A model generated the notes under the pieces. That model did not search any database, was not told where the DNA came from, and saw only the letters and a list, made by a program, of their open reading frames with translations. Positions 8,458-63,854 of a DNA stretch of 64,000 bases are shown one piece after another; the first letter of the stretch is position 1, and every line of letters begins with the position of its first letter. The stretch spans positions 42,111,697 to 42,175,696 of the forward strand of contig NC_089722.1 of the NCBI RefSeq assembly GCF_035083965.1. Direction: 5' to 3'. This stretch comes from Branchiostoma lanceolatum. Its lineage: Eukaryota; Chordata; Leptocardii; Amphioxiformes; Branchiostomatidae. The position numbers were made by a program, and so were the translations under genes.

Positions 8458-11365
8458 ATGAAGCAGACCACTCTCCTCGTTCTAGCCGTGACGTTTGCGG
8501 GATACCTGTTTATCGGAGGAGGCGTTTTCCACGTCTTGGAGGCGCCACAGGAGCAGAAGATACGAGATAAAACCTTCAAAATTCATCAAGATCAAAACGA
8601 ACTCTTCGAGCAGTTGTTTGACCATGACTCCTTCGACAACCACAACAACAACGCCACAGACGACCCGGACCGTCTCCTGGGACAGGATGACGTAACGGTG
8701 CTGGTGAGAAGAGTGAAGGAGCACCTGGACGAAAGTCTCAGAAACCTGACGTGGGAAACTCCTGGAAACACGACCAACATGACTCAACCCGTGATCAGAC
8801 TCAGGCACGTCCCCACAATGGTTCTGTCTCAGCATCAGCTAGAGGACATCATCCACACGGTGTGGACAGCTTCAGAGAGCGGACTGCACCCATTCAGTGA
8901 CGATGCAGATAGCTCGCCGCCGCACTGGGACTTCCTGCCGTCCGTAACCTTCTCGATGACCGTAGTCACGACCATCGGGTACGGCGCACACACTCCGCAG
9001 ACTACAGGTAGGGGGAGGTACTTTTTCGCAAAAGTGCAGATTTTGCTGAACATGATACGCACCTAGAAATATGGGGAGGGTCTATCTGAATATGAAAATG
9101 CAACAATTTTGTGATTATTTCAATATCAACCCCCCCTCCGTACATACCCCCTGAATTTTGTACTATGACTATGTACCAAACTAGTATACAGGTATATGCT
9201 AGCAAACATAGTTAACACCATAAAGTATAGGTAGTTCAAAAGATATTACAGTTAATATCTGAGCCCCAAATCCATTCTCCACATAGATATAGGCTATTCC
9301 CAAATCACCCCCATTGCAAAAATGTCCTATTACACCATGTACAAACCTCAAGGGGTATGTACAGGGAGGTTAGAGTCCACTACTTTCTGTGCTTAGATAG
9401 ACCATCTCCATATTTTGAAATGCGTATTTTACAAACTTGGAATTAATACTGGGGTCGTGTTGCGCAACGGCAGAGCGTTCGACTCAGAACCAAGAGGTCC
9501 CGAGTTCGAATCCTGTCATGTCACCGATCTTGTGCCCTTGGGAAAGGCACTTCACACGACTTTCCTCACTCCACCCAGGTGTAAATGGGTACCTGACTTC
9601 GGTTGGGGAAGGTCGTATTGAGGTCACCTGGTGACGCCGAATGGCAGCCGCCCAGACCCTTGCGACAATTCCACAAAATGCAAGTGTGGATAAGATATTA
9701 TATACATTGTGTTTTGTGTGAAACCTGTAATACCCTGCATCAATTCAGCGCTAATTAATAGGCTGCCATTGTGGGTAATCTCTGACCAATAAAAAACATT
9801 ATTTTAATACTACACTACAGGGGGCCGCGTGTTCGTCATCTTCTACGCGCTGCTGGGGATCCCTCTCACGGCGGCGTTTCTCAGCGGGCTCGCCGGAGTC
9901 ATGAGCGACGTGGCCCGGCGGTTCACCGACGCTATCCTGCGGTGGAACCCGAAGTGCACGCCTGCCACGGCCTCACGCATAGCGTGGGCGTGCTGTCTGG
10001 TCCTGGGGACGGGAGTGTTCTTCGTTCTGCCCGCTTGGGTGGTGCACTTCGTGGAGAAGTGGAGCTTCTTGGATTCCGTGTACTTCATGTTCGTGTCTCT
10101 TAGCACCATCGGGTTCGGCGACTTCGTGGCGGGAACAGAGAAGCAGAACTACTGGGAGGGCTACAGGATCATGATGAAGGTAATGATGATCTTTTTTTAA
10201 TTAGAATTCAAAATAAGGCCATGCTGATTTGATTATATGGTTGACATCCGCTCGGGCATCATTTTTTGTCCGTTTCCAAAAAAAAAGGCTTCGTGGCCGG
10301 CACCGAGTAGCAGATCTACTGGGAAGGCTACAGGATCATGATGAAGGTAATAATGATCTTTATTTGCACGTTTCTGTCCGCGTGGGCTAAATGCAGCAGT
10401 TTCACTATTACATGAAACCTTTACGTAAAGAAAATCACTTGTAGCGTTCTTGAACAGTAGGGGGAACAAAACAACTAAACCTATGCTAGACTTCATTTGT
10501 CGTTTATGCCATGTTGATTTGATTACCCCAAAACTGATGCGAGTGTGCTAATAAACTTTGAAAAGTTTGGCAAAAACAAGTTGCCTTCAATATAAAATCC
10601 AGGTGGCCAGGAAGAATAAACAATACTTAACACACAGTTTGGTATACCGAATAATAGAATATTCATTTTTGTTCTTTCAAATCTTCTTCGTTGACTTTGG
10701 AATTGACTTTGGCATTCTATGACATTAGTATCCGTTTTCCGAAATACATTTTTTGCAATTTACAGCATATATTTTCTCATTTTGCAGCTGCTTTCTATGA
10801 TTTACAGTATAGTAAAATCCTTTTTGGGGGGAAACGGACGAACATTGATTGTCCACATCATCAAATCAACATAGCCTTACAAAACAGCCCAACATGTACG
10901 GCTATGCTGTCATTACATCTATCGTTTAAATGTCTCTTCCCTCTTCTTAGAACAAGTGTGTACGAATTCGTCGTACAATGTTATCAGAGGATGTTACTTA
11001 ATATATATACAAATAGTTCTACTTTTTCCAAGGTGTGGATCGTCGTGGGGCTGGCGTTCCTGGCCACCATCTTCGACCTCGTCTCACAGGCCATCAAGAA
11101 GGTCGAGGAGAAGATGGATGGGGGAACGTCGGAGGATGGAGATGAGAAAGGGGAAGACAATCTTGGACAGGATGTGGGATATACGGAAGAGCAGAGTGAT
11201 GGCAACAACAAGAAGGAACAGAACCTGCACAGCAAAGACGCGGCAATGGGAGGGAGGGTCGCTCCGGCGGCCAGACCTCGCAGGAGGCCGCAGGTTCCGC
11301 TCATTATGATCGTGGACAACCCTGCAACCGGGCGGCAAGCTAGGCAGCATGTCTGGCAGATGTAG
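8458..11365 (+). CDS. KCNK: Two-pore-domain potassium channel (TASK2/TALK-like)
   Basis: Predicted K2P leak channel of 413 aa in the plasma membrane. Exons 8458-9007, 9821-10179 and 11033-11365 join in phase with GT-AG introns. TM1 is about residues 4-25. Pore 1 carries TIGYG (172-176) and pore 2 carries TIGFGD (279-284), followed by TM4 from residue 304 (VWIVVGLAFLATIFDLV). The GFGD second filter and FVAGT resemble the KCNK5/16/17 group. The TM1-P1 extracellular cap is unusually long (about 135 residues), acidic, and has four N-glycosylation sequons. The start at 8458 is chosen because the next upstream ATG sits in a foldback element and MKQTTLLVLAV begins directly before TM1. The C-tail is charged. 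A SINE lies in intron 1 and an exon 2 echo in intron 2; the terminal exon is tandemly re-copied downstream. Confidence 0.9.
9447..9690 (+). mobile_element. tRNA-derived SINE
   Basis: A tRNA-like head (ggggtcgtgttgcgcaacgg with A box, then B box cgagttcgaatcc) is followed by a body containing cttgggaaaggcacttcaca, cactccacccaggtgtaaat and gggtacctgacttcggttgg. Similar pieces recur at 41852 (+) and 16735 (-). It lies in intron 1 of the K2P gene in the sense orientation. The head is diverged and is not called as a functional tRNA. Confidence 0.75.
10291..10350 (+). pseudogene. Echo of KCNK exon 2 3' end with in-frame stop
   Basis: Bases 10291-10350 repeat the last part of exon 2 plus its donor (ttcgtggc-gg-ac-gag ... 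ctacaggatcatgatgaagg taat) from 10121-10190. The copy encodes FVAGTE and then TAG where the parent has a lysine codon. It retains a GTAATAATG-type donor. It is a partial exon duplication in intron 2, not a functional exon. Confidence 0.85.
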
Positions 11366-17200: not shown

Positions 17201-18980
17201 CGACCTAACGATATTGATCAATGATGAAGACCTTTATTGTACACATATACCCATTGGGTTTAGTACAGGTCAGAACACAAGAATAGTATACAGATACGAA
17301 TTCGAAATATACGATAAAAACATGTCATACATAGCATACAGGTACGATGATAAATACATACGATTCATCTATACATTGTCAAATTACTACAAGAATGATA
17401 AACTACATGGGTTCGACTTCTCAGCACCGCGGCTTGATAAATGAAGGTTAGGCATGCGGATAAACAATACATAAACAGCAGAAACGTCGGTAAGTACATC
17501 TCCGAGTTTTATCCAGTTAAATTCGGTCTTTATATAACAACATTTATATGCCTGCCACTTTTGATCCATTACTGATATCACGTGTTTGCAAGATCACGTG
17601 ATTGGTCAATCGAACCTGAAGAAGGCTGCCGAAGAGAAGGCCGACAATCTATCAATCAAGTTGGAAGACAATACAATCCTCACTTTACTCAGGTGTAAAT
17701 GAGTACCTAGCTCTTCTAGAGTTGGGGACGGCCCTCGGATAGGACGTTAAATGGAGGTCCCGTGTTTGAGGAGAGTCACACCTTGAGCACGTAAAAGAAC
17801 CCACCACATCTTTCGAAAAAGAGCAGGGGCATGCCCCGGTGTGAGTGGACCAAAAACATTCCGGCCTAAATGGGGTAGGGAATTTTCCGAGCAGCCTTCG
17901 TAACCCCTGCTTCTCCTTATGTGTCAGTGAAGTCAATACTTGTCTCGAGCATTGATTTTTCTGACCTAGGGTGAAGAGATGCTGCTACAGTAACAATTGA
18001 GCCGACTTTCTTCGTAAATCGATGGCAACATCAGGCTCTGATGAATTTATTTTAAAAAAAAAGACGTAGTACTAGTGGTGGCGCACTCAAGTCGACAAAG
18101 TGATCTTAGCGCCACCACTTAACGTATACATATACATATACATAAAAAAGACATAAAGATGAACAACATAAGCTGAAAAACAAAATTGTAACGACATATG
18201 ATGACCAACTTGTATAAATGTGATGGACTTAATAAATGTGTAAGAAGCAAAGGATACAGTATAACATAAAGTTGTTGAAGGCGCAAGTCCGATTCTCTAC
18301 CCCAAGTGCGAAAAAACGAATTGAACACAAAAACTTAGTTAGTTAGTTATCGACTAGAGGGATAACCCGATGGAAAGTTAATAAGTTGATACTAACCAGC
18401 CCAGGTGTCCGGTGTCGTGATACCTGGCAGCCAGAACCAGCGAGAGGATGACGTCAGCCACGTACAGTCCGAGGGGGACCGTCACAGAAACGAAGATTTT
18501 CACCGCTCGATATTCCCACATCTCACTGATGACGTCAGCCACGCTGCCGCTGCTGTCAGGGTTTGCGCTATCTAGCTGCTGTTCTCCAAGGTCAGCCGTT
18601 ATTGTGATGGCAGTCTGTGCGTTTCTGCCGTCCGGTTCCGCGTTGCTATTCAATAGATCACTGTTCCTCTGAGTCAAACTGTCCAAGACGTTGCTGTCTC
18701 TTCCTCTTGTGTTCACGTCCTTTGGACTCATGGCGGACGCCCTTGTGCTGTCCACCTGCTCTCTGCTGTCGCTGACATTGCTGTTCTCCCGTCCGACCGC
18801 CTCCTTTAGTTGTTGTAGACTCTCGGCTTTGTTACTTGTATCTGACTCGTCGGCGCTGTCCGCACTAATATTGCTGTCCATTCTTACCGTGACGTCGGTT
18901 AACTCGATGTCCTGATTCTCCATGCTGTCGGCTTTGTTGATGTTCCGTGTCCTGTACTGTCTATCGAGCTGTGTCCGCAC
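14269..18980 (-). CDS. XK-related multi-pass membrane protein
   Basis: Five exons join in phase: 18980-18397, 17204-16925, 16173-16003, 15151-15014 and 14568-14269, giving 490 aa. The first 155 residues are hydrophilic and rich in Ser/Asp/Asn (no domain recognised). From about 160 on there are successive membrane segments. The family signature HLLQLG is at residues 236-241, followed by an SLPQLCTQV stretch like the conserved APQLxLQ of XK/CED-8 proteins. XK-related proteins include phospholipid scramblases active in apoptosis and the Kell partner XK; the exact subfamily cannot be fixed by eye. The ATG at 18980 is the first in frame; an alternative is at 18923 (MENQDIELTD). The exon 3 donor is weak (gtctga). 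Introns carry a foldback, a pentanucleotide microsatellite and SINEs. Confidence 0.8.
14901..15005. repeat. Foldback element in XKR intron 4
   Basis: Arms of 22 bp (taatctccaagcagatgttt cg) and the inverse at 14984-15005 flank about 60 bp. It lies 8 bases inside the intron from the exon 4 donor at 15013. The same arm sequence, single-ended, recurs at 45329 and 45577 (aatctccaagcagat), so this is a repeat family. Confidence 0.8.
15358..15425 (+). repeat. Retroelement-end-like motif with CTGATGA ... CGAAAC core
   Basis: The sequence ctctgatgaaggtgtctgac then agacatcgaaacgttagc, ending ggttgtgtaaaaag, matches in layout the reverse complement of 31845-31905 and 11440-11500 (gaaacgttggtgga ... 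ggttgtgtaaaaag). It is therefore a dispersed element terminus. The CTGATGA, 7-bp hairpin and GAAAC arrangement resembles a hammerhead core, but stems I and III are not evident. Confidence 0.45.
15775..15925. repeat. (ACCTT)n microsatellite
   Basis: About 28 pentanucleotide units of accttacctt type with two g substitutions, in XKR intron 3. It follows a run of atctt/tcata-like short repeats from 15690. Confidence 0.95.
16735..16905 (-). mobile_element. tRNA-derived SINE, minus strand
   Basis: On the minus strand it reads tRNA-like head with B box (gggtttgaacccc) then gcccttggtaaaggcactta, cactccacccagttgtgaaa and gggtacctgacttcggctgg. This is the same family as 9447-9690. It lies in XKR intron 2 near the exon 2 donor. 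Confidence 0.7.
17680..17960 (+). mobile_element. SINE-like dispersed element
   Basis: Contains ctttactcaggtgtaaatga, gtacctag, gataggacgttaaatggagg, tcccgtgtttgaggagagtc and gcacgtaaaagaacccacca. This modular text is typical of short interspersed elements of marine invertebrates. It has no tRNA head here. It lies in XKR intron 1. Confidence 0.55.
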
Positions 18981-21900
18981 TCTACCAAGTTCTATCTACA
19001 TGTAGCCTCCACCAGGCCTTCCTACGAGTGTATGGAGTTCAGCAAAAAAGGTAATAATTGGCCTTAGAGTCAGTCCACAGTGAGGGTCAATAAACCCTCT
19101 GGTAGCCTAACTTCCCTGGCAAATATTTTCCCTATACCTGGCGTTAGTTAGTCTGGTAGAGACTAAGTTCTATCCGCATTCCATGGACTATCCCGGCTAA
19201 GATTCCTAGATCTCAGTGACAACAAGAAATAGTATATAAAAGAAACATTTGAAGGTTGAAAAACGGCTAGAGATATCGGAAAGTACTTCTTGGGTCAACA
19301 TTCCGTGTCACCTGGATTGTAATTTTCAAAGCTCGTTACACCACCACCACCCTTCTCGTAAATGCAAGCTCGTGTGTTGCCCTTTTTTTGCGGTCTAAAA
19401 TTGAATTTTTGCCACCTAAGAATGAAATGTTGCGATCTTTACACAAAATGTTACACCGTCAGAGTCTCTATTGTCTCAAAGAGCAAGAAAAGCTCACCTG
19501 TGGCAAAATATTGCGTTGCAATTCGACGAGCGTCCCTGCATACATACTTCGTGCTTGAATGTAAAAATGAAACATTTATGCGGCACTTTTACGACCAAGT
19601 CAGAAATATGTCGGGAAATCGCTTTGTTTTGATATCATGTATCGTTCACTTGTATGTGTCGTATCATGTGTAGTTAGGATTATGGAGAAAGATTCGATGT
19701 TACACGTTTACAATTACATGTCTGGTCATCATAGAATATTTTCTCCAATTACATGTATCTTCATTTCGACTTGGCCCAGAGCTGCATTTTCAGTGAGGCA
19801 CACGTGACATGGTCACTCCTACAATTAGGCACATGTGACATGATTGTGTTTGACATCCGAAGCTCCCTATAAGCCGGTTTTACGGCACCATCCAAAATGA
19901 CGAATATACAATGTAACCCCTAAAATATGACCAAGCGGCTTGACAACCTCCGCACTTCGTAAGCTTGGAATTGATTTGATCCATATACACTGTATATATA
20001 TATAGACGCACGCACACACATTCCTAGATCCTACACACAAACACGCATGATCATACACCCACAATATTGTTGATTGCTATTCTGTTCATGCAAATCCATT
20101 TGTACCATCCTAAATATTGTCTTGTCAGCAGTGCTAGCCCCTTGTAATAGCCACAGGCTAGTTGGGCAAATGTGTCCTGAACTGCCAAACCAATATAAAC
20201 AAATACACATACACTTTACAATGTATATACAGTCACACACATGATGCATACACACTGAGAAAGACACAAAAAATGATTCTATTTACTTTATTAAAGAAGT
20301 TCTGTAAGCCAAGGTGCAAGAAAATATATCAGTCCACAAACATTAGCATTAACGTTTTTGTTCACAGAAGTTTGTCAATTCTTATCAAAGGTGCAAGTCT
20401 TACACAAACGAAGGCGCATGGACGTTTCTATAAGGCAACGGAGCAAAACTGATTCTGAACATCGGGGTGGATAACAACACACACAGCAGGCCCAGACGAC
20501 TTCAACATATGAAACACTGTGTTTAAGTAGTGGTTCCACATAGACAAGGCCACCGAGCATCCATAAATTTGAAAGATCTCTGAAACGTCTTTGAGTGAGC
20601 GCTCAAAGGTCTTTCAAAGATCTCTTAACTCGTGGCCATCCAAAATTTGGACACATCTCTCAACCATCTTTCAGTGAGCGCTTGAAGGTCTTTCAAAGAT
20701 CTCTTAACACTCTCTATGGTCTTCCGATGATCTTCCAGAGGTCTCATCGGTCTCTGTCCTGTGGCAATAGTGCTTCAGTCACAAGGTTCATACAGTCTAT
20801 AGGCGGTGGAGGGACCAAGCAACAAGTACATGTGTAATGTATATGCCCATGGCAAAAACATGGCAACCTAGTTAAGTCGTTAACATGGATGAAAAATAAG
20901 CCAGGGCTTTTGCCAGTTTTCAATTTTTGTTGTTGATGTGGCATCAGATTTTTCATACAACCATGATGGACATATAAATTTTGGTATGAAGTTATGGCAT
21001 AGTTTGATGAAAGTTCAGTTTTTCCACAACGGAATATGCTTGAAACTACAATTCAGGAATACAAGAGAAGCCAAAGGTTTTATGCACGAGGAAAAATGTG
21101 TCAAACAATAGACTCTAGCAAAAGCCCTGGAATAAAAGCTCTTACGGTGACAGTGACAGAATTCTGCTTGTGTTTCAACATAAAAGCAAGCAAATGCAAA
21201 ATGTTAACAAATTTTTGAGTCTCAGATCACAGGTGGCACTAATGTCATGTCTATGGCTAAAACTTTGTACATCAATGAATCGTCACCAACACAGCAGTAT
21301 GGTTCTATTAGTCGGACACACATCTACACAATTCAGGGGCACACAGCACCACCCACCCATCTCTGTCTACTCCAGTCTCAGTTCTGATTCATTCTTCAGA
21401 CTTTCAAACCACACCAATACAATCTGATCGTTCTTGGAGTGAGGAATAAAAGAACCCTAAACATGTCGTGAAAACAACATGAAAAGGGTGACAAGTTTAT
21501 GCTTTAGATTTCAGGGATTGGGTATAGTCAGATTCAAGTTATCTTCCCAATTGCCTCTGTTTTAATCTAATGGTATTTTGCTCAATATTTATTCATATCC
21601 AAAAACCGAAGAAATAAATTGGTGTGACCTGATAAAGCCGTTTCCCAAACTCTAAGAGCACAATGTTAAAAGTCTTGCATTTCAATCTGATACTAGATGT
21701 ACAGCAAAGTTTCATAATGTTGTTCAAAAGAAAGGAAGACCATTCTTTCTTCTATGTATGTTATCATATCTTCCTTTCTGCAACAACTAGTGTGTGTATA
21801 GGCTTTGGAAATTTGCTTGAAATCCCAAATTTTGAGTCTTTCCTGATTCTAAGTGACCAATGTTGATGCTTTTTTCACCCCAGAAGTGTACTTGAAAGTC

Positions 21901-23676: not shown

Positions 23677-26600
23677 TCAGACCCAGGAGTCTGTGGGTTT
23701 CTGTGGGTCGGGGTCCTCCAGCTGGAACGTCCGTGGGTCGGGGTCGTCCACGTAGCCGTAGTCTTGAGCAGGTCGGTTCTTGTCCTTGTTAACCTGCTAA
23801 CAAGAACAGACACATCAGCTGAAGTCACGTCATCAGGACCATTTTTCCTCATGACCAGGTACATACAGGGCTCGAAATACTGGGCGCATGTGCACCTGTG
23901 TGCACCTAATTTTTGACTGTGGGTGCACCAGTGCACCAAGATATTTTTGTACTCTATAGGGAAACGATTCTCTTGTATGCTAGTATACAAAATATTCTTG
24001 AAATGTAAGTATCAGAAAAAGCAATATTACCTTTTGTTGTACTTTATTTGATGTATTTCTTGGTTGAAATTTGAAATCTGATTAGACTTACAGATTGCAG
24101 TTCTTAAGAGAGGCAGAAGCGTCAAACTTATGTTTTGTTGACATTCAACTTTCTTTTATGTGGTGCATCCAAAATCATTTCTGTGCACCTAATTTTTTTT
24201 GTTGGGTGCACTACATGTTGCACTTCTAAATGTTGCACTTTTGACCCTACTTTTAAAATTCAAAACTAAGTGTTACACTTTATGACTGCACATTTAATAA
24301 GTTCTACTAAATGTTTCATTTCTAAATGCATCACTTTATGACCCTATATTATAGGTTTAAATTATATACTTTATGACCCTACTTTTGATACATACTACTA
24401 AATCTTTCATTTCTAACACTGTAAGGCTCTACATTAAAAATGTATTACTAAATGTTACCTTGTTTCTAATTGTTACACATTATAACCCTACCTTTGAAAA
24501 TAAAATGTACAACTTAATGTTACACTCTAAATACCACACTTGGTGGCCTTACCTCTGAAACACACACTACTAAATGTTACCTTTCTAAATGCTACATGTT
24601 TTAGTAATACATCTAATATAATGAAACACATTACTGAACGTGACACCCAACGAACGTACCTTTGCATACAGAGGCTCAGAGTTTTGGTTGGGTGTTCCGA
24701 ACACCGGCACTCCCCCCACCGGTGGCTGGAAGTTCTGCTCTGGCCTTGTGTCTCTCTCCACAGTGGCGTAGCCTGAAAAAGTAACTCTCTCAGTAAGCAT
24801 CTATAAAACTCACAAGGTCAAGTCTAGTGCTGTGTACCTAGTAACCAGTGCTCTCACCAGACTTTTTTCACAGCATAGGGGTCAAGTACAGAAGGCCAAT
24901 TTTGCGTGGCACAAGTCATGCGCAGACACTTTTTTCTGCCTTTTGAGGGATAAATTCATTCTTAAGCCTAATATCAACTTCTTATATGATTCATGAAGTG
25001 TCACAAGGTTCTCCCAGAAAGAAACACGCCTATCCTGATTGAAACACAGTGTAGGGGTCCAGATCACAGTATAGGGGGCCCCTATGATGAAAAGGCCTGG
25101 CAAGAACACTGGTCACTGTACCTGTAAAATTGTTCAGGTACAGGTCCAATTCTGAACATCAAGTGTACCTGTACCTGAACATCAGAAAATAGAGCATGAT
25201 CCATTTCAAAGTCAGGAAATTTTGCCAGAAAGTTTGAAAACCTGGTTCATGTGAGAGTCCACAAATTTTGTCAGAAGGTCAGAAAACTTGATTGAGAAAG
25301 TCAGGCAATTTATCAGAAAATTACATTCATAAGAAAGTCAGAAATTTAGAAAGTCAGGAAACATTATTACAGTATATGAAAGTCAGCAAATTCTGTCAGA
25401 AAATGACAAAATTTCTTTTTTTCTCAGAGTTAGGAAATTTGGTCAGAAAGTCAGAAAACTTTATTTCCATGAAAATCAAGAAATTTGGTCAGAAAATTCT
25501 ATTCAAATGAAAGTCAGGAAATTCTGTTTATTCATATGAAATTCCATAAGTTGATACAATAACTCTATAATAAATTAGAAATATTTAAGGAAGTCATGAA
25601 ATTTCACACCCACCTGGAGTCAGGTCTGTCATTGGGATCTCCTCTGGCGCACCCCGACCTGGGTCACCGCCTGATGGACAGAACGAGAAAGGTGAGACAA
25701 CAACCAGGACGGAAAACTCCTATGTGATACCTACACCCACATCTGCTGCAATGGCTGAGTTGGTACAGTGCTCACCTTTTCATGGGTTTGATCCCAACCC
25801 AAGTCACACTCATACCATTGCTTTGGAAAGGGCTTCAAAAACCTAACTTGAAACCTAAACCTATGAGTTGGAAAAACTTGTTCTGGTGCCACAGAAACAA
25901 ATTTCAATTGATTGCCAAACATCTGCTTTCTGTCAAGGAATTCTGTTGATTAACACATTTTGCTCTATTACCTTACTTTTAGGCTTAAGTGGTTGAAATG
26001 AAGACTCAATCTAAAAGAACTGTACAACCTCTCTCATAAAGTGGTTGTCATTCCAGTCATCTGGCTCGTATCAACTCTACTCAAAATCTACATACCTAAA
26101 ATTACCTGGGGACAAAACGTTATCTCTGTCTATGTGCACTGAAACTACCCATGCCTGTGTTATATAGAAAGACATGCCTGTCTTTGTTTAAACCAGCAAC
26201 AGTGGAGAATTTTTGGGAGACTGGCCGGCTACAATAAGACTTAATGAACAGAGAATGACACAGAGCACTGACAGGTTTAAAGTGTGCTTCAATGATAATT
26301 ACACTTCAACCATGTGACATTGAAAGCATGGACAGGATTACTAATGGATCTGCTAAAATCACCATACTCTGTTCAACTTAGTTAAACTTGTTAACACACT
26401 TGCATGTATCTTTTCGAATTTCACGATTTTACATTTTTTGTAATTTTGGATTGTACTTTTTGCCTGGTCATTCAATTTTCTAGTCCAAGAGCAGTTTGAG
26501 TGTCATGATGGTAACTGTGAATGAAGCAGACATTGCTACAATAAGTTACTAGTATCATCATTGTTATCATATGCTATCATAGTGACCAAAGAGTTTTTGC

Positions 26601-29600
26601 TATGGGACTGAATCATGGGTGGTTACTATGGTAGTGACCCATGGGTCGTCGCTACCCGTATGTTACTGACCAATGAGTTTTTGGCATGGAAATGACTCAT
26701 GACTCGTTGCCATGTTCCCGACCCATGGGTGGTTGCTATGTTCCCGACGCATGGGTGATTGCCATATTCCCGACCCATGACGTGTTGCCATGTTACCGAT
26801 GCATGGGTGGTTGTGATAGGAGCCACTGGGGGTTGCTATGGTAGTGACCCATAGCGTGAGTAGTTGCTATGTTACTGACTGGTTGCTGTTCTACTGACCT
26901 GCAGGCCTGGTGCCGTTGTCGTGGGAGAAGTCCAGCTGCCTCCTGCCCGAGGCCTTGTCCTCCGGCATGGTGGAGTAGGCGTTGGCGTTGCCCTGCGGCG
27001 CGGGGAGGGTCGTGTCGTCGTACTCCAGCCCCGCCCCAGGGGACGCCCCACGGGCCATGGTGGACCCGGGGGGTCGTGCGGCGACCCGCGCGGGCGGGAA
27101 GTGCGAGGCGTTCCAGCCGTCCTTCTTGAAGACGGGACGCAGGTCCTTGAAGGACCACAGGGTGGCGAGGACCTGGCGGATATCAGAAAACTTGATAAAC
27201 GTTGTGTAAAAAAAAGACTTATCTCCATCCAGTTTAGCTTACTGAAGAGCTACAGTATCTACAGGTTTATTGTAGCGGGAAAATTCCCCTAGCTCTTTTT
27301 GACAACTACAATGAACCATGGCGTAACGTCCCGTCCTAAGGACTGCGAACCTATACCAGCTCTCACCGTTATGTATGTTGCGTCATGTATGTGTAATAAA
27401 ATGTGTATACAACTATACATTTATTAGGACTTTGAATGATGTAAATGTATCTTTGTTGTATATCTTCCCTCATGACCTTAATGAAAAGCTCTAATGAATA
27501 AACAAAGGTTCAAACAAACAAACAAACCTGCCGGGCCGCCCGTACCACCTCTGCCGAGTACTTCTCCCTGGTCTTGTTGATGGTGACGAGCCTCTCGATC
27601 CCGCCCGCGTCACGCAGCGACTTCGCGTTCTCCATATTCTTCGAGATGACCTCATGGAGAGTGTGCAGTATCGCCACCATGGTCGGCTCGGAGGTCTTCG
27701 GCGCGCTGTCTCCTCCGGGCAGCCTATAGACGAGGTCCCGCATGGCGTACTTCCCGATCAACTCCTTGTTCCGGTTGTCGAGGGAGAGGTTGCGCAGGGC
27801 GGTCGCCACGGCGCGCACCACACGATCATTGTCCATCCGTATCAGCTCGACCAACACGGGAAGGCCCTTGTCCTTGCGCACCATGGCACGTACGTACGCC
27901 GCCCACTTGTTGTTTCCCGCGGACAGGTTCTGCAAGGCGCCGGCCGCCGCCTCGAGAGTGTCGTGGTTCGAACACTCCAGTAGTAGCGACAGGTACGGAC
28001 GAACCACCTTAAAGCAGAAATTCAAAAATTGAAATTAGTTCTGTCATACTTATAGCTCTTCAAAATAGTAATACAACAAAGGGTTGTGGTTGGAACACAC
28101 TAGCAGTAGAGACAGGTAGGGAAGAACAACCTTTAAACAAAAATTCAAAGTTCAAATTATTTCTTGGGCAGTGTAAGGCCAAAATGGGAATACGACTTTT
28201 GTGCCAAAGCAATATCCAGACTTTGCTATATCTACTATTTGCAATTAAGTCTACCAAGTACTGAATTGGGCAGTATATTAAAGGCCCAAAATGGGAATAC
28301 GATAATCATTATAGTGCTAAAGCAGCTCAGACTTTGCTGTTCATACTATTTGAATCTAAACTTGATCCCCCCACCTCAGGCTGCCACAGCAGTTCCTGTC
28401 CCCTTGCCGGCTCCGCCCGCTGAGGGATGGGTCCCGTCCCGTCCCACTGCTTGATCCCGCTGTCTTCCGACTTCTTCTTCCCCGAACCGAAGCAGCTCGT
28501 GGGGGATTTCTTCTTGGGCGGCGGCTGGGCGGACTTGGCTGGCTCCGCCAGCTCGTAGCGCTGCGCGTTTGGCACTTCTTTGGGCAGCCGGAAGGAGAGG
28601 TTACGCAGCACGCACATGCAGTTCTCCACGGACTTGTTGTCCATGTCGTTTTTACCGATGGCGGTCTGGAGCACGTGTAGGAGGGCGTCGACCAAGCCGT
28701 CGCATTCCCGCATCTTTCGTCTCGCGTCTGGGCCCGCAGAGCTGTAAGTGATATTTGTGAAATTTCAGCAACCTTACATCAGATATTTGTTTATTATAAT
28801 CACAAAAAAGCCAACGTCCATAAGGCGACAACAATTTAAGTTCTTGGTTAACGGATTTTTCTTGCAAAATTTTAGCACTTAGGACATCATTAAAACAGAA
28901 GGCTGGGGTGAAAACTTGCACCTAACCCTGTTCACTCCCTGAAATTGTGTGCACCAAAGTACAGACTTTTCTCTGAGATTCTATTTGCATGTTGATTTTC
29001 CAATCTAGCATTCATTTGAAAAATTCTGTTAACCAAGAAATTAAATTGGTGTGGCCTTAGCAAGGTGAAAAAAAATCACCTTGAATTTGAGATGATTCAC
29101 TTACATTTTAAAACGATTACAAACATACAAACAGTTATATACAATTTGTACATTTAGCTCATTGAGGATATAGCACATAGAAAACCACTGCTTAGTGCTT
29201 AATCTTATTTTATTGATGCACCTGACATTGCAAAGGCATCCTGTGGCGTTCCGGAACACGATGAACCACTGGTGTTTTGCTTTCTTGATGGGTTAGGCTC
29301 AAGTGAGCAAGTATTGTGTGTCCTGTCTTATATAGACCAGGTGTAAAGTACCTTAGGCAGCTTAACCAAGGCATCTTATTTCATTGACTCACCTGACGTT
29401 GCGCAGGCATCCCGTGGCGTTCCGGAACACGACAGACCACTGGATGTCGCGCGGCTTGCTGTCGGCGTCAGGCGCGGCCTCCCAGCCGGAGTGCGGGATG
29501 ATGATACGGTTGGTGAGCACGGTGAGCGCGTCGTCGATCACCGCCTGCTTCAGCGGAGGGTGGGACGAGAGGTTCCACAGGACCCCGGTCACCAGCTCCT

Positions 29601-48313: not shown

Positions 48314-51300
48314 ATGGGGAAGAAACAGCACCAGAAGGACAAACTGTGAGTAGCACGGTTAAGGAAATTGTTATTGTTCTTCTTCTTCCACCAGATTAAG
48401 ATCACTTGTTTTGGCACACATTTGGTGCGGAAGAAGAAAATAATTTTCCCTTCTCCAAAAATTAGTCATGATCAAGCACCTTTCTCCGACTTCATAGTAG
48501 TACTAGCTAGTAGAAGCTTAGATGGTCACAGTGCTCTGTAGACGCTGTTCAGGATTTCCAACGTATCAAAGTAACGTTAACGTTAGGAAACAGCAAGGAA
48601 ATCTCTCCGGGACACAAAACTGTTCAAATGATTGATATGAATTATCTAATTTTCCATCAAACTTTCAAAATCAAAGACTCTGTCTTTTATATCTTTGGAA
48701 GATCAGATTTGTCAGGAAGCTAAACCAGGATTGAAACTTACCATACTTCATGTACGTTTTGTCTCTTTACTCAGATATCTGACCTGCTCAGAATGGACCC
48801 AGTTTTTCGGAGGCAAAAAGTCAGGTAAGGTTTAAGTCCTCTTTCTCATAGGATAAGCTGAAGGTTTACATTTGTATGTACAATGAATATTGTTAGGGTA
48901 GAGATTGGCAGAATCACAGACTCTGCCAGTAGAGATTCTGATTGGAGTCTCTAACTCTAATGACAAATTTAGATATCCCCTTCATAGACAGAGCTTTTCA
49001 ATTCTAGTTTAGATCAATCAAATCTAAGACGTACAGAAGACGTCAAAAATTTGGAGGTGCGTTTATCACTACCTTTCTTTTGAAGTCACTGTTTGAAGAA
49101 TATTCTTGTAGCCAACCAATCAAATTTAAATGGGAGACCACAACCTGATCATGATGATCTCTGTCAATTATTGTACTGTTGACAGGAATCGGGACCACAT
49201 CCAGCAATTTTACCCTGACATAAACATTGGATGTTTTGGAACTCCTTGATGTACAACTGTTATGCAATGAAATTTGTTCATCATGTCAACGGTCTCGCAC
49301 CCAACAGCCAGTGTATAATTGTAACGTTACATGTGATGGTGTATTCTTGTTTTCAGATGGTCCAGAGAGGGGACCTTTCAGACGTCTCCCTTTCTACTGC
49401 TGCAGGTAAACGAATAAACGGCCAACCAACCATGGGCATAAGTAACCAACAGTTGTTTATCTTTCTGTCAAAATTTGCCACATAGACTGATAGAGTGGAG
49501 GCAGCAGGTAACAACAGCATAATGAAACCACTAGATACATGCAATACCCCAAATAGGATAATGTAGTGTTGAAAGTAATGAAAAAAGAGTTTGTTGAGGG
49601 GTTTGTGAATAAATCATGTAAGTAGGAATAGAGTCTAGCAGTACTCAGATTTAAAAAGTCACACTAAGTTGTGTATCACTCAGTTTAAGTTCACTGAGTA
49701 TTACCATGCAGTTCAGACTTGTTTCACTAGGGGGCTCTCTTGAAATGACTAACAACTTTTCATTTCCTCAGCCTTTCGCTGCAACCGTTTGAACATCCAC
49801 TGTGCACGGATAAAGGAGTCATCTTTGACTTGATGTGAGTAACAGAGAATGGTTCTCTCAGTACTATTGAAGCTATAATGAATATCTAAACAGATTTACT
49901 TCACGAACATTATCAAGAATATCATGTTTAGAACCTGATACTGATACAGAGAGAACTAGCTATAGTTGGTGGCCTATGCCCAAGGATGGGCAGTAGGCCT
50001 AGTAAGTACTAGTACCTGATACAGACATATCTTGTACATGTACTTAAGTTGTTAGCTGGGAAATTGATTTTACTGCTTTGAGAAGTTGTTGTCACGTTGC
50101 CATCTTTATGTTACTCTTGTCTTAGAATAAGTTAGATTCTTTCTCTTTTCCTACTGGGGTAATACTGTTGTCTGGAAGTAGATACAAGTCTCTCCCTTGT
50201 TACAGGAACATTGTACCCTGGCTGAAGCAGTATGGCACAAACCCCATCACAGGAGAGGTGAGGGAATCTGTCAATTAATTGATTAATCAATCAATCAATT
50301 GATCAATCGATCAATCAATCAATCAATAGACCAATCAATGTTTTGTGAGTTCTTTTTCTGTGGTTTCTGTAATCATAATATTATGTAGGTGTGCTCTTGT
50401 TGGATTTTTATGACTAAGAACATTGAGTTCCTGTGCTTGCATGGAACTCATTAGATTGTATTGATTACGACAAACTTTCTCAATTCCCTCAAGAGCACTT
50501 TCATTTCTTGTTGATATGTCTTGACCTTGACAGAAAATGGAGGCCAAGGCACTGACCAAGCTGACCTTCCACAAGAACACTGAAGGTCAGTCCATTGACA
50601 TTGCTCATGACCTCATAAGTCATAAGTGTCATACAAATGTATGACTATGAATCAATGAATCTATCAATCAATGAATTTCCATTGTGCATGTTGCAACTAT
50701 TTTTTTTCAACCATGTAATCAATGATACTGCAAACAATTGATTTTAAATGTGTAGCAAAATTAAGTTACTGTGAATTTAAACTTGTGTTTACAGTATGAG
50801 TAGAGAACAAGGAAGAAAAAAAGAGTTTATAATGTTCTGACTAAGAATGGGGGGAATGAAATTTGTCTCCCCCCACTCTTAGTCCACTCCTGTGTACAGA
50901 TTTTACTCCTGTAGTTTTCCATGTCCATCCTGCAGATAAGTACCACTGTCCGGTCACGTTCAAAGTCTTCAACGAGAACGCCCACATCGTCGCCATCAAG
51001 AAGACAGGACATGTCTACAGTTATGAGGTGAGGAGATGTGTTCTGATTAACAAACAAACAAACAAACCAGTCTAGATCTGTTTCTTCATTAGTTTTGTGT
51101 GTGGGTCACGACACCAGCAATAGCTGCCTGTGTCTCACATGTATTGTATTCATCGCAATCTCAATTATAAAACCAAAAATAATCAAATCAGAATCAACAA
51201 TATGTACTCTGTAGTGAATGACAATGTTAAGCCATATCAAATTGTTTTCTTCATTTTAAATCAACATATCAAATTAAAACAATTAAGCAACAAGACACTG

Positions 51301-54300
51301 GACACAAAAACAGAGAGCAGGGAGGATGCTTGCATCTGACTAGAAATCCACCCTGGGACTGTGTGTTGAAATTTCCCTCTTACTTTTTTTGACCTCCAAA
51401 CTCAGCATTTTTTTGTCTTCAATCGGAGAATCTAGGAATGAAGCTGGTGACGCCTTAACAGTTAACTGCCCTGAAATCAACTAACAATAGTATAGATGCA
51501 GTTCATGATTGTGATGATAGTTTTAAGTGCTTCTCATGACCCTTGAACTATGACTTGACCTTCAGGCAGTTGAGAGGTTAAACATCCGACCTAAGAACTG
51601 GAAGGACCTCCTGACGGACGAGCCAATCAGCCGCAAGGACATCATCACCCTCCAGGACCCGACGGACCTGGACAAGTTCAATTTCAACAACTTCCACCAC
51701 CTTAAGCACAACCTCAAACTCACAGACGAGGGTAGGAAAGCCCCGGGAAAAAGCTTACATGTGGACTTCTGACAACTGAGTAGCATGTGTAGTCCAGTTC
51801 TTAGCAACCCTGCCTCTGGACTAAGTGGTTGGGAGTTCAAATCCCGACTGTAGTTGTTCACCCCAGTGATATCTAGGGTTGCGGTCCTTAAGGTCAGAGA
51901 TTAAACCGTGGTCCACTGTTCATTGTGCTTGTCAAAAAGAATTAGGGGAATTTTTCCAGTATGATGAACCTGTAACTAGCATCTGTCTTCTCTGTAATGT
52001 TCATGACCAGTGGAAGATTAGCTTTTCTGTGAGCAAAATCGGATTGATGTGTTCAACAATTCATATTTTTCGAGATCCATAGTAGCAGTAGTAGAAGTAC
52101 TAGTAGTTGTGTAGTAGAATAAGATCCCTATAGTAGAATGGAACTTGTTGTCATTGAGTACCGTAGGAGCATCCTCACTAAATAGCTTTTAAAAGAATGG
52201 TTGCAGTCAGATGTGCAAAAGTTAGGTATGACAGGCCGTTCAGTGTAATATAACCAGCTGGTGTGTTACACTGAATGGCAGTTATACCGGCTATACAGAT
52301 ACAGAAATAACTGTTTCAAGATCACTCTCTCACTTTCCGCCCCCCCCCCCCCCCTGCAGAGGTGGAGAAAGCGAAGAAGGATCCCTCGTACCACCTGAAG
52401 AACGTGAACTCCATGACTGGAGACGTGCTGCAGGAGCTGTACAGGGACTACAAGCCGCAGGATCTGGTCAGTGGAGTCACCACACTCTCATAATATGATG
52501 CATCTATCTACATCTATTCAAGCCCCTGGATAAGTTCTCTAAAGAGTAAGACATGTCAGAGAGTAACCGCCATCTTTCATCATTAATTAAGAATGTCATT
52601 TTGGAATGTCTAATTCTTCAGAGAATTTATCCACTCGTGCTGCTTACCTACATGTGACAGGTTCAGGGGTTTATAGGTACAGCTCTGTACCTGAACTAGA
52701 CTACAGACCGCAGGATCTGGTCAGTACTAGTGCTGTGTACCTAAACATGACATCAGGTACAGGTACAGGTACTGAGTACAGAGGTTTAGGCACAGGCCCT
52801 GTACCTGTGCCTGAACTGGACTACAAAACCCAGAACCTGATTAATGGAGACTTCACTCTCACTGCAGAATTGCATGATAGTTACTTTCCCAGAAGGACTG
52901 AAAATTTTTCTTGTCTGTATGTCGTGTGTGTGTGTCTATCTATCTGTGTGTGTATGCCTATATTGTCTACATGTATGTGTGTTTGCATGGGTGTCTGTCT
53001 TGCGTATGAAAATTAATGATGCTAATGTTGACTTTTTTGCTGTTTTTACCTTTTCAGCTTCCAAAGGAAAAGAAGGAGGAGCACCCAGACAAGATGAGCT
53101 CTGTAAGTTTTCAATTCTCTTAATTTTCCAAAAGATCTCAATGATATCTATCAGACTCTATAAATAATATTTCTTCTATCATTCTCTCCGCCAGTTCAGT
53201 AAAACACTATTTTTGGGTATTGTTGGGGAATTTATGTTGGAGGCTTTTTTCTCCCCTGTTCCAGGCCCACCACACGACGGGCATGGTGGCTGCAGGTTTC
53301 ACCTCCACAGCCGTCACACCGCGTACGGAACACGTGGCCGGTTAGTACGGTTTTGTTGTGTCCGTACATTCATGTAGTTAATTGTTAGCCTGAGTACCAG
53401 CCTCCATAGTGACTGCTTGCTAAGCGATTTATTTTAGCCAGCGGTCACTACGGAGGCTGGTACTCAGGCTAGTTAATTGTTAAAGGAGAAATACAATGAT
53501 TACACTTATTAAGCCTTTGTCCACCCAAAATCATGTTTACTATTAGTTTTGTAGCAAACGTGATTCATAGCTTTCCACCAGTCCCACCACAATTTTCAGT
53601 GATGTCAAGCCCAAATCCATGTCCATGCAATTGTGGTGTAATGAAGTTCTGAGTGCGATCGATTGTTTTATTGTTAACAAGAGAATGCTATCTGAAATGT
53701 CTGACTCTTTAAGGGATTTGTCCAGCTGCTTGTTTGAGTTTGTTTGTGATACAAACTGTAACATGTGACAGGTAAAATTCCTATTTCTATCTCCCTATGC
53801 ATGAGACAGTAAGTTCTGTGTTTTTATCATTTTGCAGCCAAGATTGACAATGATGAGCTGAAGTACCGTTTTGTGAAGAAGAAGGGCTATGTCCGGATCA
53901 GGACCAACAAAGGAGACCTCAACATGGAGCTGCACTGTGACATGGTAGGGACACATATGTCTGCTCTGGTGTAGCCTCGATGCCAGACTCATTTGCCTAT
54001 GGCACAAAGTGATACCAATCCCTTGGGCTATACCGCTCCCAGAGTTGGCGCCCTACACCAAGTAAGCATGGCTTGTGCGAGAGATAATTAGAGGTAGGTT
54101 GCCAACTCTGGGAGTGGGGTATGTTGCTATCCTGGCCGACAGCAGTGTTACGCTGGGTCTGGCATCCACTGGCTAGATTTGTCAGGTTTTTGGATTTGAA
54201 AATATCAACATGAGTATGAGGGGAATCTCAGACCGTACTATTTGATTGATTTCACTTCGTAACTAGTAAAGAGTTCAGTCCCACTTTATACTCACCACTA

Positions 54301-57300
54301 ATGGGAATATTGGGTCACTATTGATAGGTTTAATTGTACTTGGTTCAATGGGGAATGATCTTAGGAAAATAGTGGCTACATTGGCCTTGTGGTCCTCATG
54401 TAGAAGTGTCACTTGTACAGATTTTAGTGTAAATGATCTTAATGCAATGTACATCAACATTGTACTTGGATGATAGTTAATATATGTTATACCTGACCAT
54501 CATTCCAGGTCCCCAAAACGTGTGAGAACTTCCTGAAACACTGTCAGAACAAATACTACAAGGGAACTCAGTTCCACAGGAGCATCAGGAACTTCATGGT
54601 TGGTCCCTTATCCCTACTTTGCTCTTTGATTATGCTGAACTTCACTGATAGTCCCCTTGTCAATAACTCCTCTGCTAAGTCTGGTGGAACGTCCAAAATT
54701 GTCAAATCCTCTCTACGTCTACTTCTATAATCTAACCTTCCCATATCTAACTGCATGCATTGTTTGAAGCTACCTATTAGTAAGTACTTGATAACTTAAA
54801 GTTATCTGTTATACAGATATCTGTTATATCATTTTTTTGTTGGTTGATCTATTCTTCAGTCTGTACCTCTTCTATCCAGTTTCGGAGGAAATTAAGACAG
54901 TTAATGTTACATCTTAGAAGTATGAGGGATCCTTATGAAGCTTAAATTTTTAAGATGATGGCATGCAATCAAACTCTATGATGATCAGACAAATCGCTGT
55001 TGTATAGAGTCAGGCAGAACTTTAATTTGTAATGTGCAAATTTACTACAGAGTCTTACAGAACATTGTAACCTATGGTGTTATTGTGAAATGTTAATGTT
55101 GTCATGTGTGATTTTTCTCCCCAGATTCAGGGTGGAGACCCCACAGCCACAGGAAAGGGTAAGTACACAACTCTGTCTTCACTTTAGGACCTCTTCGTGA
55201 ATTGTTGGCAGATTCTTACTTCTACTAGACATCAAAACATCCATGATTGTGCCATTAGGCCACACCAATTTGATTTGATTGTTTCTTGGATATTAAGTGA
55301 TTCTGAACTGGAACAGACACAGTATCAGGACATGAATCCAGACAGATTCTAGTTTTCTGTCCAGTCCTTTAGACATTGTGTTTTTATCCTGGCCTCTTAA
55401 TTGCTGAACTTTTGGTAAATAATATCTAAAGTCCCAAAACCACAGATTCTGAAATGAATTGGTGTTGTCTAAGGAGAGTCTCCAGTATTGTGTAATTATC
55501 TCCCAGTTTTATTACTAGTTAGGTTGAAAGTAAAAGCTGCTTCCTATGCTATATAGACATACTTGGTTGTACCATTTTGCAGGAGGGGAGTCCATCTGGG
55601 GCACACCATTCAAGGATGAGTTCAAGCCCAACCTGACCCATACTGGCCGAGGGGTGCTGAGCATGGCCAACTCTGGGCCAAACACCAACAAGTCCCAGTT
55701 GTAAGCTGCTGCATTTCATCTTTGTCAGTCAAAGTTTCTCTACCAAACAGTTAAGCCATCATGCAAATGTTTATTTATTTCTGTCATGTTATGTCAAATG
55801 GACAGGTGACACTTTACCATCATATTTTCAAAATCAGTTATGACTGTCACTTTGATTACACTAGGATTGAGATCTAGAATTTTTGATATAAAATTCGAAC
55901 TCAAATATATCCCCATAACTCTGCATGCATGTACAATCATGCATTATGACAGAAAATATTGTATACCATATTCTTGACAGCAAGTTTGTGACTTTTAAAC
56001 GTGTCCAGTTCGCCCATTTCTGACATGAGCTTCCAACGTGGTGATGATAAACATTGAGGACTTATTTTCTGTGTTATTACACAGTTTCATCTATATATGT
56101 TGTTGTCCAGTTTCATCATGACTTTGTATGGTTCCTGTGAAGCTGTAACCAACTGTATGTATGGTGTTATTGTTGATGCTATTCTTGTTTTTGTATTAAT
56201 CCTGTAACCAGTATGTTGTTGTTGTTGTTGTTATTGTTTTTGACCAGTTTCATCACATACCGATCCTGCACCCACCTGGACCGGAAGCACACGGTGTTCG
56301 GGAGGGTGGTGGGAGGACTCGACACTCTCACCGCCATGGAGAAGGTCGAGTGTGACTCCACAGACAAACCACAGGTAGGGTCAGCAACACAGGCAGTGCC
56401 TAATGACACTCACTTCTAGTCACTCTACTGTAAAAGATCTGTGAAAACACAAGAACACAGACATGAAGGCACATTGAAAACAAGTTAAAGCTCCCTGCGC
56501 AGAGGCAGAAAGAACAAAATACAAGACAAAAGTGCAAAGTACATTTAGTGATGAAAGCACATGAAAATAATACCACCAAGTGATGAGATACATGACCCTC
56601 TGGTTGTCTTGTAGTCTCGTAACATGTCCTGCCAGTGTGCAACGGTTCCTGAAATAGGGCAAATATTTAATTAGGTGTCTGCAGTGTGGTACCAGCCACT
56701 GTTGTTTACTGTGTTTCGTTATTTTAATAGCATCATATATTTCTCTGCTGCTTTCCAGGAGGACATCATGATTACAGACACCCTGGTGTTTGTGGACCCC
56801 TATGAGGAGGCAGAAACACTGGTGGGATACCTCATGTTGTGGTCTCAGACCTGTGTTCCATGTGAATTCCATCTTGTATTCCCCTAGGTAGAGCTACATG
56901 TAGTCAGTCATGCACATCAAGCCTATTCCCATACATGTACATGTATGTTTTTGCACACCATTACAATCATGGTACTAATTTTTGTAGCATATATCATTTA
57001 TATCTAGATTAGGTCTGTTCTTTAATTCCATAACAATGTACTTCACTTCTTTTATTGCAGTGCTTTCAGAATTCTGTTGTATAAGATCAGAAAATTAGAT
57101 ACTTGTTATTTAATGTCAGTGTTTTTTTTTAACACTATATATACTGGTACTTGTCCATGTACTTGGCCTTTGCCTTGTCTGATTTTGATAATTCCTTTTT
57201 CATCCATCTTTTCATTCATTCATTTCTTCCTGCCTTCTTCAGGTTGAGGATGAGAGAAGAAAGCAGGCGGCCGCTGAGGAGGAAGAGAGGAAGTCCTACC

Positions 57301-58025
57301 TGAACATTCCTGTCAAGAGGAAGAAGGACGAGGGGCCCAAGGTCTTCAAGTCAGGCGTCGGGAAGTACATCAACATGGCCAGGTGAGGTTAGGTTACATC
57401 AACATGGCCAGGTGAGGTTAGGTTACATCAACATGGCCAGGTGAGATCATGTTACATCAACATGGCCAGGTGAGGTTAGGTTACATCAACATGGCCAGTT
57501 GAGGTTAGGTTACATCAACATGGCCAGGTGAGATCATGTTACATCAACATGGCCAGGTGAGGTTAGGTTACATCAACATGGCCAGGTGAGATCATGTTAC
57601 ATCAACATGGCCAGGTGAGGTTAGGTTACATTACGTCAACATGGCCAGGTGAGATCATGTTACACCTTCAAGTAAGGCCACACCAAATCAATTCGATACT
57701 TCATAGATTCAGAAAAAGCAACAAACAGAAAAATGAACATGAAAACAGAGTCTGAGGGGAAAGTCTGTACCTTAGTACACACAGATTCAGGGAGTGAATT
57801 AAGTCAGATTCAAGTTTATCTCTCTGCCCGTTTTCATCTTGTCCTCTTGCTTAAATTTCATTCTGATATGTAGCTTATCTGTAAACATTTTGGTAACCCG
57901 CCAGCGCCAGTGCCAGTACCAGCAGTGCAGACCCCGGGACCAGTAAACAGACCGACCACGCCGCTGTGCCGCCCAAGAAAAAAGTCAAGTCCTCATCCAA
58001 GCTCACCGACTTCAGCGCATGGTAG
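48314..58025 (+). CDS. PPIL2: PPIL2, U-box and cyclophilin-domain protein
   Basis: Nineteen exons join in phase to 527 aa (about 520 in human): 48314-48345, 48775-48824, 49357-49405, 49772-49834, 50206-50257, 50534-50585, 50936-51027, 51566-51731, 52360-52466, 53058-53102, 53265-53340, 53838-53944, 54509-54598, 55125-55158, 55583-55700, 56248-56374, 56759-56821, 57243-57382, 57905-58025. It starts [15 protein letters not shown] and ends DFSAW, both family hallmarks. The U-box region is about 35-100. The cyclophilin domain is about 278-435 with R321, F326, M327, Q329, F379 and H392 matching cyclophilin A catalytic residues; the Trp121 position is His387, so cyclosporin binding should be weak. 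The C-tail is basic. PPIL2 is a nuclear, spliceosome-associated protein with ubiquitin-ligase-type U-box. A (gtt)n run lies just before exon 16. Confidence 0.97.
51800..51995 (+). mobile_element. tRNA-derived SINE in PPIL2 intron 8
   Basis: The head retains the B box (gggagttcaaatcccgac) and is followed by gtccactgttcattgtgctt, gtcaaaaagaattaggggaa and ccagtatgatgaacctgtaa. The body matches the inverted copies at 27245 and 63855. Confidence 0.7.
52691..52850 (+). pseudogene. Two echoes of PPIL2 exon 9 3' edge with donor
   Basis: At 52701, ctacagaccgcaggatctgg tcagt copies the end of exon 9 and its donor (ctacaagccgcaggatctgg tcagt, 52448-52472). A second, more diverged copy (ctacaaaacccagaacctga ttaatgga) starts at 52821. 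Both are preceded by the same ctgaact-gactac text, and ggtacaggtacaggtac repeats lie between. Confidence 0.8.
53376..53481. mobile_element. 84-bp foldback with 11-bp target duplication
   Basis: Element 53387-53470 has arms agcctgagtaccagcctcc and ggaggctggtactcaggct with further pairing inside. Both sides carry agttaattgtt (53376-53386 and 53471-53481). It lies in PPIL2 intron 11. Confidence 0.88.
53972..54175. mobile_element. MITE, agcctcgatgccagac ends
   Basis: The left end tagcctcgatgccagactc and the right end gggtctggcatccactggcta are inverted copies; subterminal gctcccagagttggc and gccaactctgggag also pair. Related to 38795-38925. In PPIL2 intron 12. Confidence 0.75.
55245..55475. repeat. 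Dispersed repeat, ggtgtggcct family (inverted)
   Basis: Begins attaggccacaccaatttga and ends with a second partial tgaattggtgttgtctaa. Matches 28920-29065 in inverse orientation. In PPIL2 intron 14. Confidence 0.5.
57366..57668 (+). repeat. 29-bp minisatellite containing the PPIL2 exon 18 donor
   Basis: The unit gtgaggttaggttacatcaa, catggccag repeats about ten times. The first tacatcaacatggccag is coding exon 18 itself; each later unit repeats those 17 exon bases and then gtgag. The intron therefore offers about nine further copies of the natural donor. Variants read gtgagatcatg. Reading through any unit meets TGA at once, in the GCC AGG TGA frame. Confidence 0.92.
57675..57850. repeat. Dispersed repeat, ggtgtggcct family (inverted)
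   Basis: Contains aaggccacaccaaatcaatt, gaggggaaagtctgtacctt, agtacacacagattcaggga, matching the inverse of 28920-29065 and 37375-37490. It directly follows the 29-bp array in PPIL2 intron 18. Confidence 0.55.
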
Positions 58026-59867: not shown

Positions 59868-60770
59868 AAAAGGTTAACCCTCCAGCCTGTTAAGACAGCC
59901 ATTTGGCTCCAAATCTGTAGTGGTTATGAGAAGAGATAGCATGGGAAAGGTTAACCTTCTCCCTGCTGCCTAATAAAACTCAAACCAATATACTATAGGG
60001 AATTGGGTGCCAAACGGCTACTTGAGTGTGCTAAAGGTTAACCTTTTTACAACAAATTTAACCCTCAAACTGCTAAGGTAGCCAATTTGGCACCATATCT
60101 GTTTTGTTGATGGGTTGTAGGGGGAGGTTAACCTTCTCCCTGCTGCCTAACTCTAACCAGTAGGGAATTGGGGGCCAAACGACTACTTCAGTGTGCTAAA
60201 GGTTAACCTTCTACAACAAATTTAACCCTCAAACTTCTAAGGTAGCCAATTTGGCACCAAATCTGTTTTGTTGATGGGTTGCAGGGGGGAGGTTAACCTT
60301 CTCCCTGCTGCCTAACTCTAACCAGTAGGGAATTGGCTGCCAAACGGCTACTTCAGTGTGCTAAAGGTTAACCTTTTTACAACAAATTTAACCCTCAAAC
60401 TGCTAAGGTAGCCAATTTGGCACCGAATCTGTTTTGTTGATGGGTTGCAGGTTAACCCTCTCCCTACTGCCTAACTTTGTAACCAATAGGGAATTGGGGG
60501 CCAAACGACTACTTCACTGTGCTAAAGGTTAACCTTTTACAACAAATTTAACCCTCAAACTGCTAAGGTAGCCAATTTGGCACCGAATCTGTTTTGTTGA
60601 TGGGTTGCAGGGGAGTGGTCAACCTTCTCCCTGCTGCTTAACTCTGTAACCAATAGGGAATTGGGTGCCAAACGGCTACCTTAGTTCGCTAAAAGTTAAC
60701 CTTCAGCATGGTAAGGTAGCCAGTGTGGCACCAAATTTGTCTTGGTTACGAGGTGGGGTTGCAGGGGAAG
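59868..60770. repeat. 165-bp minisatellite running to the ADPRH stop codon
   Basis: About 5.5 units; ctaaaggttaacc recurs at 60031, 60196, 60361, 60522 and 60689. Each unit has palindromic ggttaacc elements, aactgctaaggtagccaatt, tggcacc, and gttgatgggttgcagg. The final unit ends within a few bases of the ADPRH stop at 60773-60775, so the array is the gene's 3' UTR or immediate downstream DNA. Confidence 0.88.
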
Positions 60771-60772
60771 GT

Positions 60773-63854
<3,082 letters not shown>

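Follow-up and report, generated by a model that had tools for sequence, protein, structure and literature searches.

A donor-side mirage minisatellite in amphioxus PPIL2, probably neutral, among local duplications that strike exon boundaries at about the background rate

The last intron of PPIL2 in Branchiostoma lanceolatum opens with a tandem array in which the end of the preceding exon and its splice donor are repeated again and again, which raises the questions of how such an array arises, which donor is used, and whether exon boundaries are struck by duplication more often than other positions. The array was analysed in a 64,000-nucleotide stretch of DNA (hereafter the window), and the parts of the gene that concern us are as follows.

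48775..58022, plus strand: PPIL2, 18 coding exons modelled by homology to human PPIL2, short first 5′ exon not located
57243..57382, plus strand: penultimate coding exon (17th of the 18 modelled), 140 nt
57905..58022, plus strand: last coding exon, its acceptor AG being one of several in-frame AGs in 57904–57925

The 516-aa model protein matches residues 12–520 of human PPIL2 (7abi_t) with an E value of 2.7e-214, which bears out the gene identity proposed in a preliminary description of this DNA; human residues 1–11 lie outside the model, and the match reaches the last human residue (520). The C-terminal part of the model matches human PPIL2 by itself (7.4e-83) and holds a Pfam cyclophilin domain. 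The exon next to the array had been called exon 18; in the model it stands 17th of 18, and the earlier number would require a single short 5′ exon ahead of those modelled. This exon ends with GGG AAG TAC ATC AAC ATG GCC AG/GTGAGG, and homology to the human protein crosses the junction, running through GVGKYIN-MA and then into a tail that ends with DFSAW (DFSSW in human). Because protein homology carries on past this junction as far as the C-terminal residue, it supports use of the exon-adjacent, first donor together with an acceptor near 57905. On the acceptor side, a series of in-frame AGs is present at 57899–57926 (CAGCGCCAGTGCCAGTACCAGCAG); the candidate exon starts are 57905, 57911, 57917 and 57923, the exact base being uncertain, and the choice among them would lengthen or shorten a Ser-Ala stretch without a frameshift.

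Tandem Repeats Finder reported the array at 57366–57664, with a period of 29, 10.1 copies, 88% matches and a score of 462. The ten full units, nine of them extra, occupy 57366–57660; thus the start given in the preliminary description (57366) stands, while its end (57668) overshoots the last full unit by a few bases. Each unit consists of the exon's last 17 bases, TACATCAACATGGCCAG, followed by 12 intron bases, GTGAG[G/A]T[T/C]A[G/T]GT, and unit alignment agrees with the earlier reading of the unit as exon end plus donor. That reading had also put about nine extra copies of exon end and donor at the start of the intron; nine were counted, of which eight have an intact donor. The first intron base lies at 57383, 57412, 57441, 57470 and 57499 in copies 1–5 and at 57528, 57557, 57586, 57615 and 57649 in copies 6–10, and the donor GT is kept in 9/10 copies (1–4 and 6–10), copy 5 having TT.

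57366..57394, plus strand: copy 1, with the donor that homology supports (first intron base 57383)
57395..57626, plus strand: copies 2–9, intronic, of types ABAABABA
57482..57510, plus strand: copy 5, donor GT changed to TT
57627..57631, plus strand: 5-base insert TACAT between copies 9 and 10
57632..57660, plus strand: copy 10, type B, with one A to G change in the exon part

The intron part occurs as two types, A (GTGAGGTTAGGT) and B (GTGAGATCATGT), and the order from copy 1 to copy 10 is AABAABABAB. Copies 1–3 and 4–6 differ at only one of 87 bases, which suggests that the array expanded in blocks of units; the A/B order by itself is not significant, since 35 of the 210 possible orders have no adjacent B pair. 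Moreover, variable columns number 1/17 in the exon part and 4/12 in the intron part of the unit, which is not a significant difference (p = 0.13). When up to 3 mismatches are allowed, the 21-base core of the unit matches the window at 10 places, each of them within the array; the expectation from 100 shuffles was 0. Because the core is absent from the rest of the window, the unit appears to be locally derived, and origin from a dispersed repeat or mobile element was rejected on the same confinement of the core to the array. An exact match to the core was also absent from two sequence collections, viral_contigs and genome_contigs, which carries little weight as these apparently hold no amphioxus genome.

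Arrays of this kind have a name in amphioxus. Canestro et al. reportedly described in 2002 mirage minisatellites in Adh3 of B. floridae and B. lanceolatum, according to papers that cite the work. In a later paper, ‘mirages’ are tandem repeats across exon/intron boundaries in the Adh3 and globin genes; they show length instability, Adh3 data and globin RT–PCR suggest that they leave splicing undisturbed, and they are proposed as raw material of new introns (PMC3087553). TnC and PGBD5 are further lancelet genes with boundary repeats that are said not to disturb splicing (PMC3902484). The published length instability leans toward a varying unit number in such arrays, and the published undisturbed splicing leans against an effect of PPIL2 copy number on splicing, a possibility that was raised in the preliminary description and that the present results do not support.

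In every testable feature the PPIL2 array agrees with this class, and we identify it from its sequence as a donor-side mirage minisatellite: its units cross a homology-supported boundary with 17 exon and 12 intron bases, they carry the splice signal (GT in 9/10), and their length of 29 bp lies within the range of 10–72 bp cited for Adh3 mirages. As in Adh3, tandem units lie across a boundary and copy a splice signal repeatedly into the intron; however, allele and somatic variation and transcripts are reported for Adh3, whereas the PPIL2 array is known from one sequence. The globin genes BflGb6 and BflGb9 have boundary-spanning duplicates on the donor or acceptor side (PMC3087553), as found in this window, and the two-copy cases of the window (123–253 bp spacing) are near them in scale; their units are 150–160 bp long, in contrast to the ten 29-bp units of PPIL2. 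The lancelet PGBD5 and TnC repeats include splice sites, as the PPIL2 units do, although the PGBD5 units are 60 and 108 bp long and imperfect (PMC3902484). The Rogers model of intron gain by AGGT-bearing tandem duplication, illustrated by potato RdRp (PMC4974935), likewise copies splice signals locally; unlike in that model, the PPIL2 copies lie inside an existing intron and no new intron is indicated. The class was therefore already named in amphioxus genes, and what is new here is the PPIL2 locus and the boundary count given below. The preliminary description had drawn no link to mirages or to similar duplications at other boundaries of the window, and in the literature searched we found no report that links PPIL2 with an amphioxus mirage, the sole match for PPIL2 and amphioxus having concerned hes genes.

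We consider it most likely, with a probability of roughly 0.8, that the PPIL2 array is a neutral mirage, a by-product of heavy local tandem duplication, and that the exon-adjacent donor is used. In this account, a 29-bp segment across the junction of the penultimate exon and its intron would have been duplicated in place, the first duplication probably occurring over a 4-base TACA match between the exon (TACATC...) and the intron (TTACACC...). TACACC stands right after copy 10, its first four bases, TACA, being the same as the unit start, and the presence of TACA at both edges is consistent with such an origin. Later growth of the array may have come from slippage or unequal exchange, with some steps adding two or three units at a time. 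Splicing would stay at the exon-adjacent copy, as protein homology suggests, and a transcript spliced at a later copy would meet an immediate stop and be unproductive; the simplest account of why the array is tolerated is that the exon-adjacent donor still works. The array would be one case of a high general load of local tandem duplication in this genome, in which boundaries are struck about as often as other positions.

One alternative makes the later donors active. Splicing at any of copies 2–10 would retain AGG TGA and give ...KYINMAR-stop with loss of the C-terminal tail (copy 5 is included in this count although its GT is gone), so that the immediate in-frame TGA predicted earlier for later-copy splicing is found throughout, and the alternative sites that give premature stops, as in a switch through nonsense-mediated decay, are present in copies 2–10. 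The distances from this stop to the last junction are 25, 54, 83 ... 262 nt for copies 2–10. Nonsense-mediated decay sets in at a distance of roughly 50 nt; by this rule the copy 2 product would escape decay, that of copy 3 would be borderline and the rest would be degraded. In this reading the later donors compete with the first, with copy 2 giving a truncated protein and copies 3 onward feeding decay, and the fraction of PPIL2 transcripts that are unproductive would depend on unit number. The eight additional donors, intact and strong, speak for this, as does the single stop codon shared by all later products at distances that straddle the ∼50-nt rule. Moreover, human PPIL2 chains occur in 10 PDB entries, 7abi and others, several of which are spliceosome structures, so the competition could serve as a feedback device. 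Unit number might conceivably tune PPIL2 output, and copy number would then set the level of a spliceosome-associated protein. Nevertheless we regard competition among the donors as decidedly unlikely, because published mirages are reported to leave splicing undisturbed, the same kind of duplication is found at other boundaries of the window at background rate and needs no special cause, the donor is lost in copy 5, and the exon part of the unit is not significantly less variable than the intron part. The fuller proposal, in which the eight strong donors divert PPIL2 transcripts and unit number, perhaps varying by allele or cell, sets the protein level, is very improbable.

Under the preferred reading of a neutral mirage spliced at its first copy, one donor would need to prevail over eight others of almost the same strength, all lying within 270 bases, and in this sense mirages are natural tests of donor choice. 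The predicted pairing with the 5′ end of U1 is −11.6 or −11.1 kcal/mol in the intact copies and −4.9 in copy 5. Because the eight extra copies pair equally or nearly equally with U1, donor strength gives no reason for copy 1 to win. Among the nine of 17 PPIL2 donors scored, 57383 has the best pairing (−11.6), the others ranging from −5.0 to −11.4. Vertebrate constructs with duplicated identical donors tend to splice at the intron-proximal copy, the opposite of a copy 1 choice, and this preference counts against first-donor use. For one human gene, SRSF1 bound just upstream is reported to suppress the intron-distal donor, an effect that, if valid in PPIL2, would likewise disfavour copy 1. Later donors might be hidden by RNA structure, but the two folding predictions disagree on whether copy 1 stands out: by local folding its donor is the most open (0.40, with 0.14–0.34 for the others), whereas by global folding its value of 0.29 is exceeded by copies 3 and 10. 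The array folds strongly compared with shuffled sequence, both as RNA (z = −2.53, with 4/200 shuffles equally low) and as DNA (z = −7.27), which may be what a repeat with a short palindrome gives. The exon next to the array is GA-rich, with GAA or GAG at 17/138 positions compared with densities of 0.036–0.078 in five of the remaining 17 exons of the model; it is suggestive only that exon definition through this exon helps donor choice, and the human SRSF1 case points against the idea.

Whether boundaries are special was addressed by a count over four gene models in the window: PPIL2, an ADP-ribosylarginine hydrolase (2.3e-78), a K2P potassium channel (3.3e-32) and a delta-catenin (4.9e-148). 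Their 59 boundaries (28 donors and 31 acceptors) were placed by visual inspection, with reading frames, GT/AG and homology as guides; a candidate gene at 14000–19000 on the minus strand and the catenin's 5′ exons, among others, lie outside the set. For each boundary, a 50-base query with the junction at its centre was searched against the 1 kb to its left and the 1 kb to its right, and a match had to extend at least 6 bases across the junction each way with a score of at least 34, a fixed cut-off. By this rule 7/59 boundaries have a duplicate, while shuffled flanks gave 0/2360 with a maximum score of 28. The matching donors are 52467 and 57383 of PPIL2, 63199 of the hydrolase, 29392 of the catenin and 10180 of the K2P channel, and the matching acceptors are 62375 of the hydrolase and 28007 of the catenin. 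Either of two looser rules gives 8/59. PPIL2 acceptor 56248, whose score of 32 is over the null maximum, would make 8/59 if counted. Six boundaries (31755, 31444, 31019, 26898, 63325 and 9821) are at or beyond the limits of the stretches that align to solved structures; none of them matches, and 7/53 remain without them. The duplications, in addition to the PPIL2 array, are the following, donor 62146 counting only under the looser junction rule.

52445..52860, plus strand: second PPIL2 donor duplication, donor 52467, copies near 52698–52740 and 52818–52860
62885..63227, minus strand: hydrolase donor array, donor first base 63199, units of ∼31 bp, degenerate into the intron
62296..62523, minus strand: hydrolase acceptor duplication, exon start 62375, upstream copy 132–138 bp away
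61966..62195, minus strand: hydrolase donor duplication, donor 62146, 54-nt copies 176 bp apart, 93% identical
29202..29443, minus strand: delta-catenin donor duplication, donor 29392, 71-nt copies 171 bp apart, 86%
27982..28149, minus strand: delta-catenin acceptor duplication, exon start 28007, 45-nt copies 123 bp apart, 84%
10122..10365, plus strand: K2P channel donor duplication, donor 10180, 77-nt copies 167 bp apart, 90%

The duplicate copies are on the intron side in all cases, which is partly expected because the exon-adjacent copy, with the protein intact, defines the exon. The exon part of the K2P channel's duplicate copy has TAG instead of AAG.

The same rule applied to interior positions of the modelled genes gave 148/1154 matches in introns and 29/338 in exons, and 369/3090 positions match across the whole window. 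Thus boundaries show no excess over intron interiors (Fisher p = 1.0), and boundary sets shifted circularly round the genes 1000 times gave a mean of 6.05 matches (sd 1.94), with P = 0.41 for 7 or more. Boundary duplicates in this window are about as frequent as random placement gives. The count suggests that mirages are an expected outcome of heavy local duplication and not rare curiosities.

A process aimed at boundaries, such as breaks at donors that are linked to transcription or RNA, would favour duplication there, and it would fit with 7–8 of 59 boundaries being affected in one 64-kb window and with the larger share of donors (5/28) than of acceptors (2/31). Without the repeat-rich hydrolase gene, 5/52 boundaries match, compared with 53/983 intron positions (odds ratio 1.87, p = 0.21) or with a mean of 2.93 in shifted sets (P = 0.15); boundaries may thus have a modest excess, but it is not significant. 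As the donor/acceptor difference is not significant either (p = 0.24), nor the contrast with intron interiors over all four genes, we regard such targeting as decidedly unlikely. An assembly artefact, with a wrong array or unit number or two merged alleles, is highly improbable: short-unit arrays are hard to assemble, and published work mentions one amphioxus mirage misassembled in a draft genome (PMC3087553) and another with different copy numbers in two versions (PMC3902484), but the ordered variants and copy-specific insert among the PPIL2 copies are not expected of simple stutter, and several independent two-copy cases at 83–93% identity occur in the window.

Further repeats are present in the window. 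Large tandem arrays outside modelled exons occupy 9–546, 863–1719, 4895–5672 and 59995–60703 (units of 21, 38, 37 and 165 bp, respectively), so the window is repeat-rich. A repeat cluster at 26583–26813 (units of 26, 52 and 84 bp) starts within ∼100 bases of the delta-catenin donor 26898 on the minus strand, and it did not score as a boundary duplicate. At 11206–12255 a 414-bp unit is present in ∼2.5 copies with 97% matches and takes in the last part of the K2P reading frame, its TAG stop and what comes after; it is a tandem copy of the gene end, not of a splice site. In the last hydrolase intron, a 32-bp array of 17.8 copies (60988–61538) resembles the acceptor of the same intron (exon start 60924, minus strand), with a local score of 15 compared with a maximum of 11 in 300 acceptor shuffles, and it is possibly an old acceptor-side mirage.
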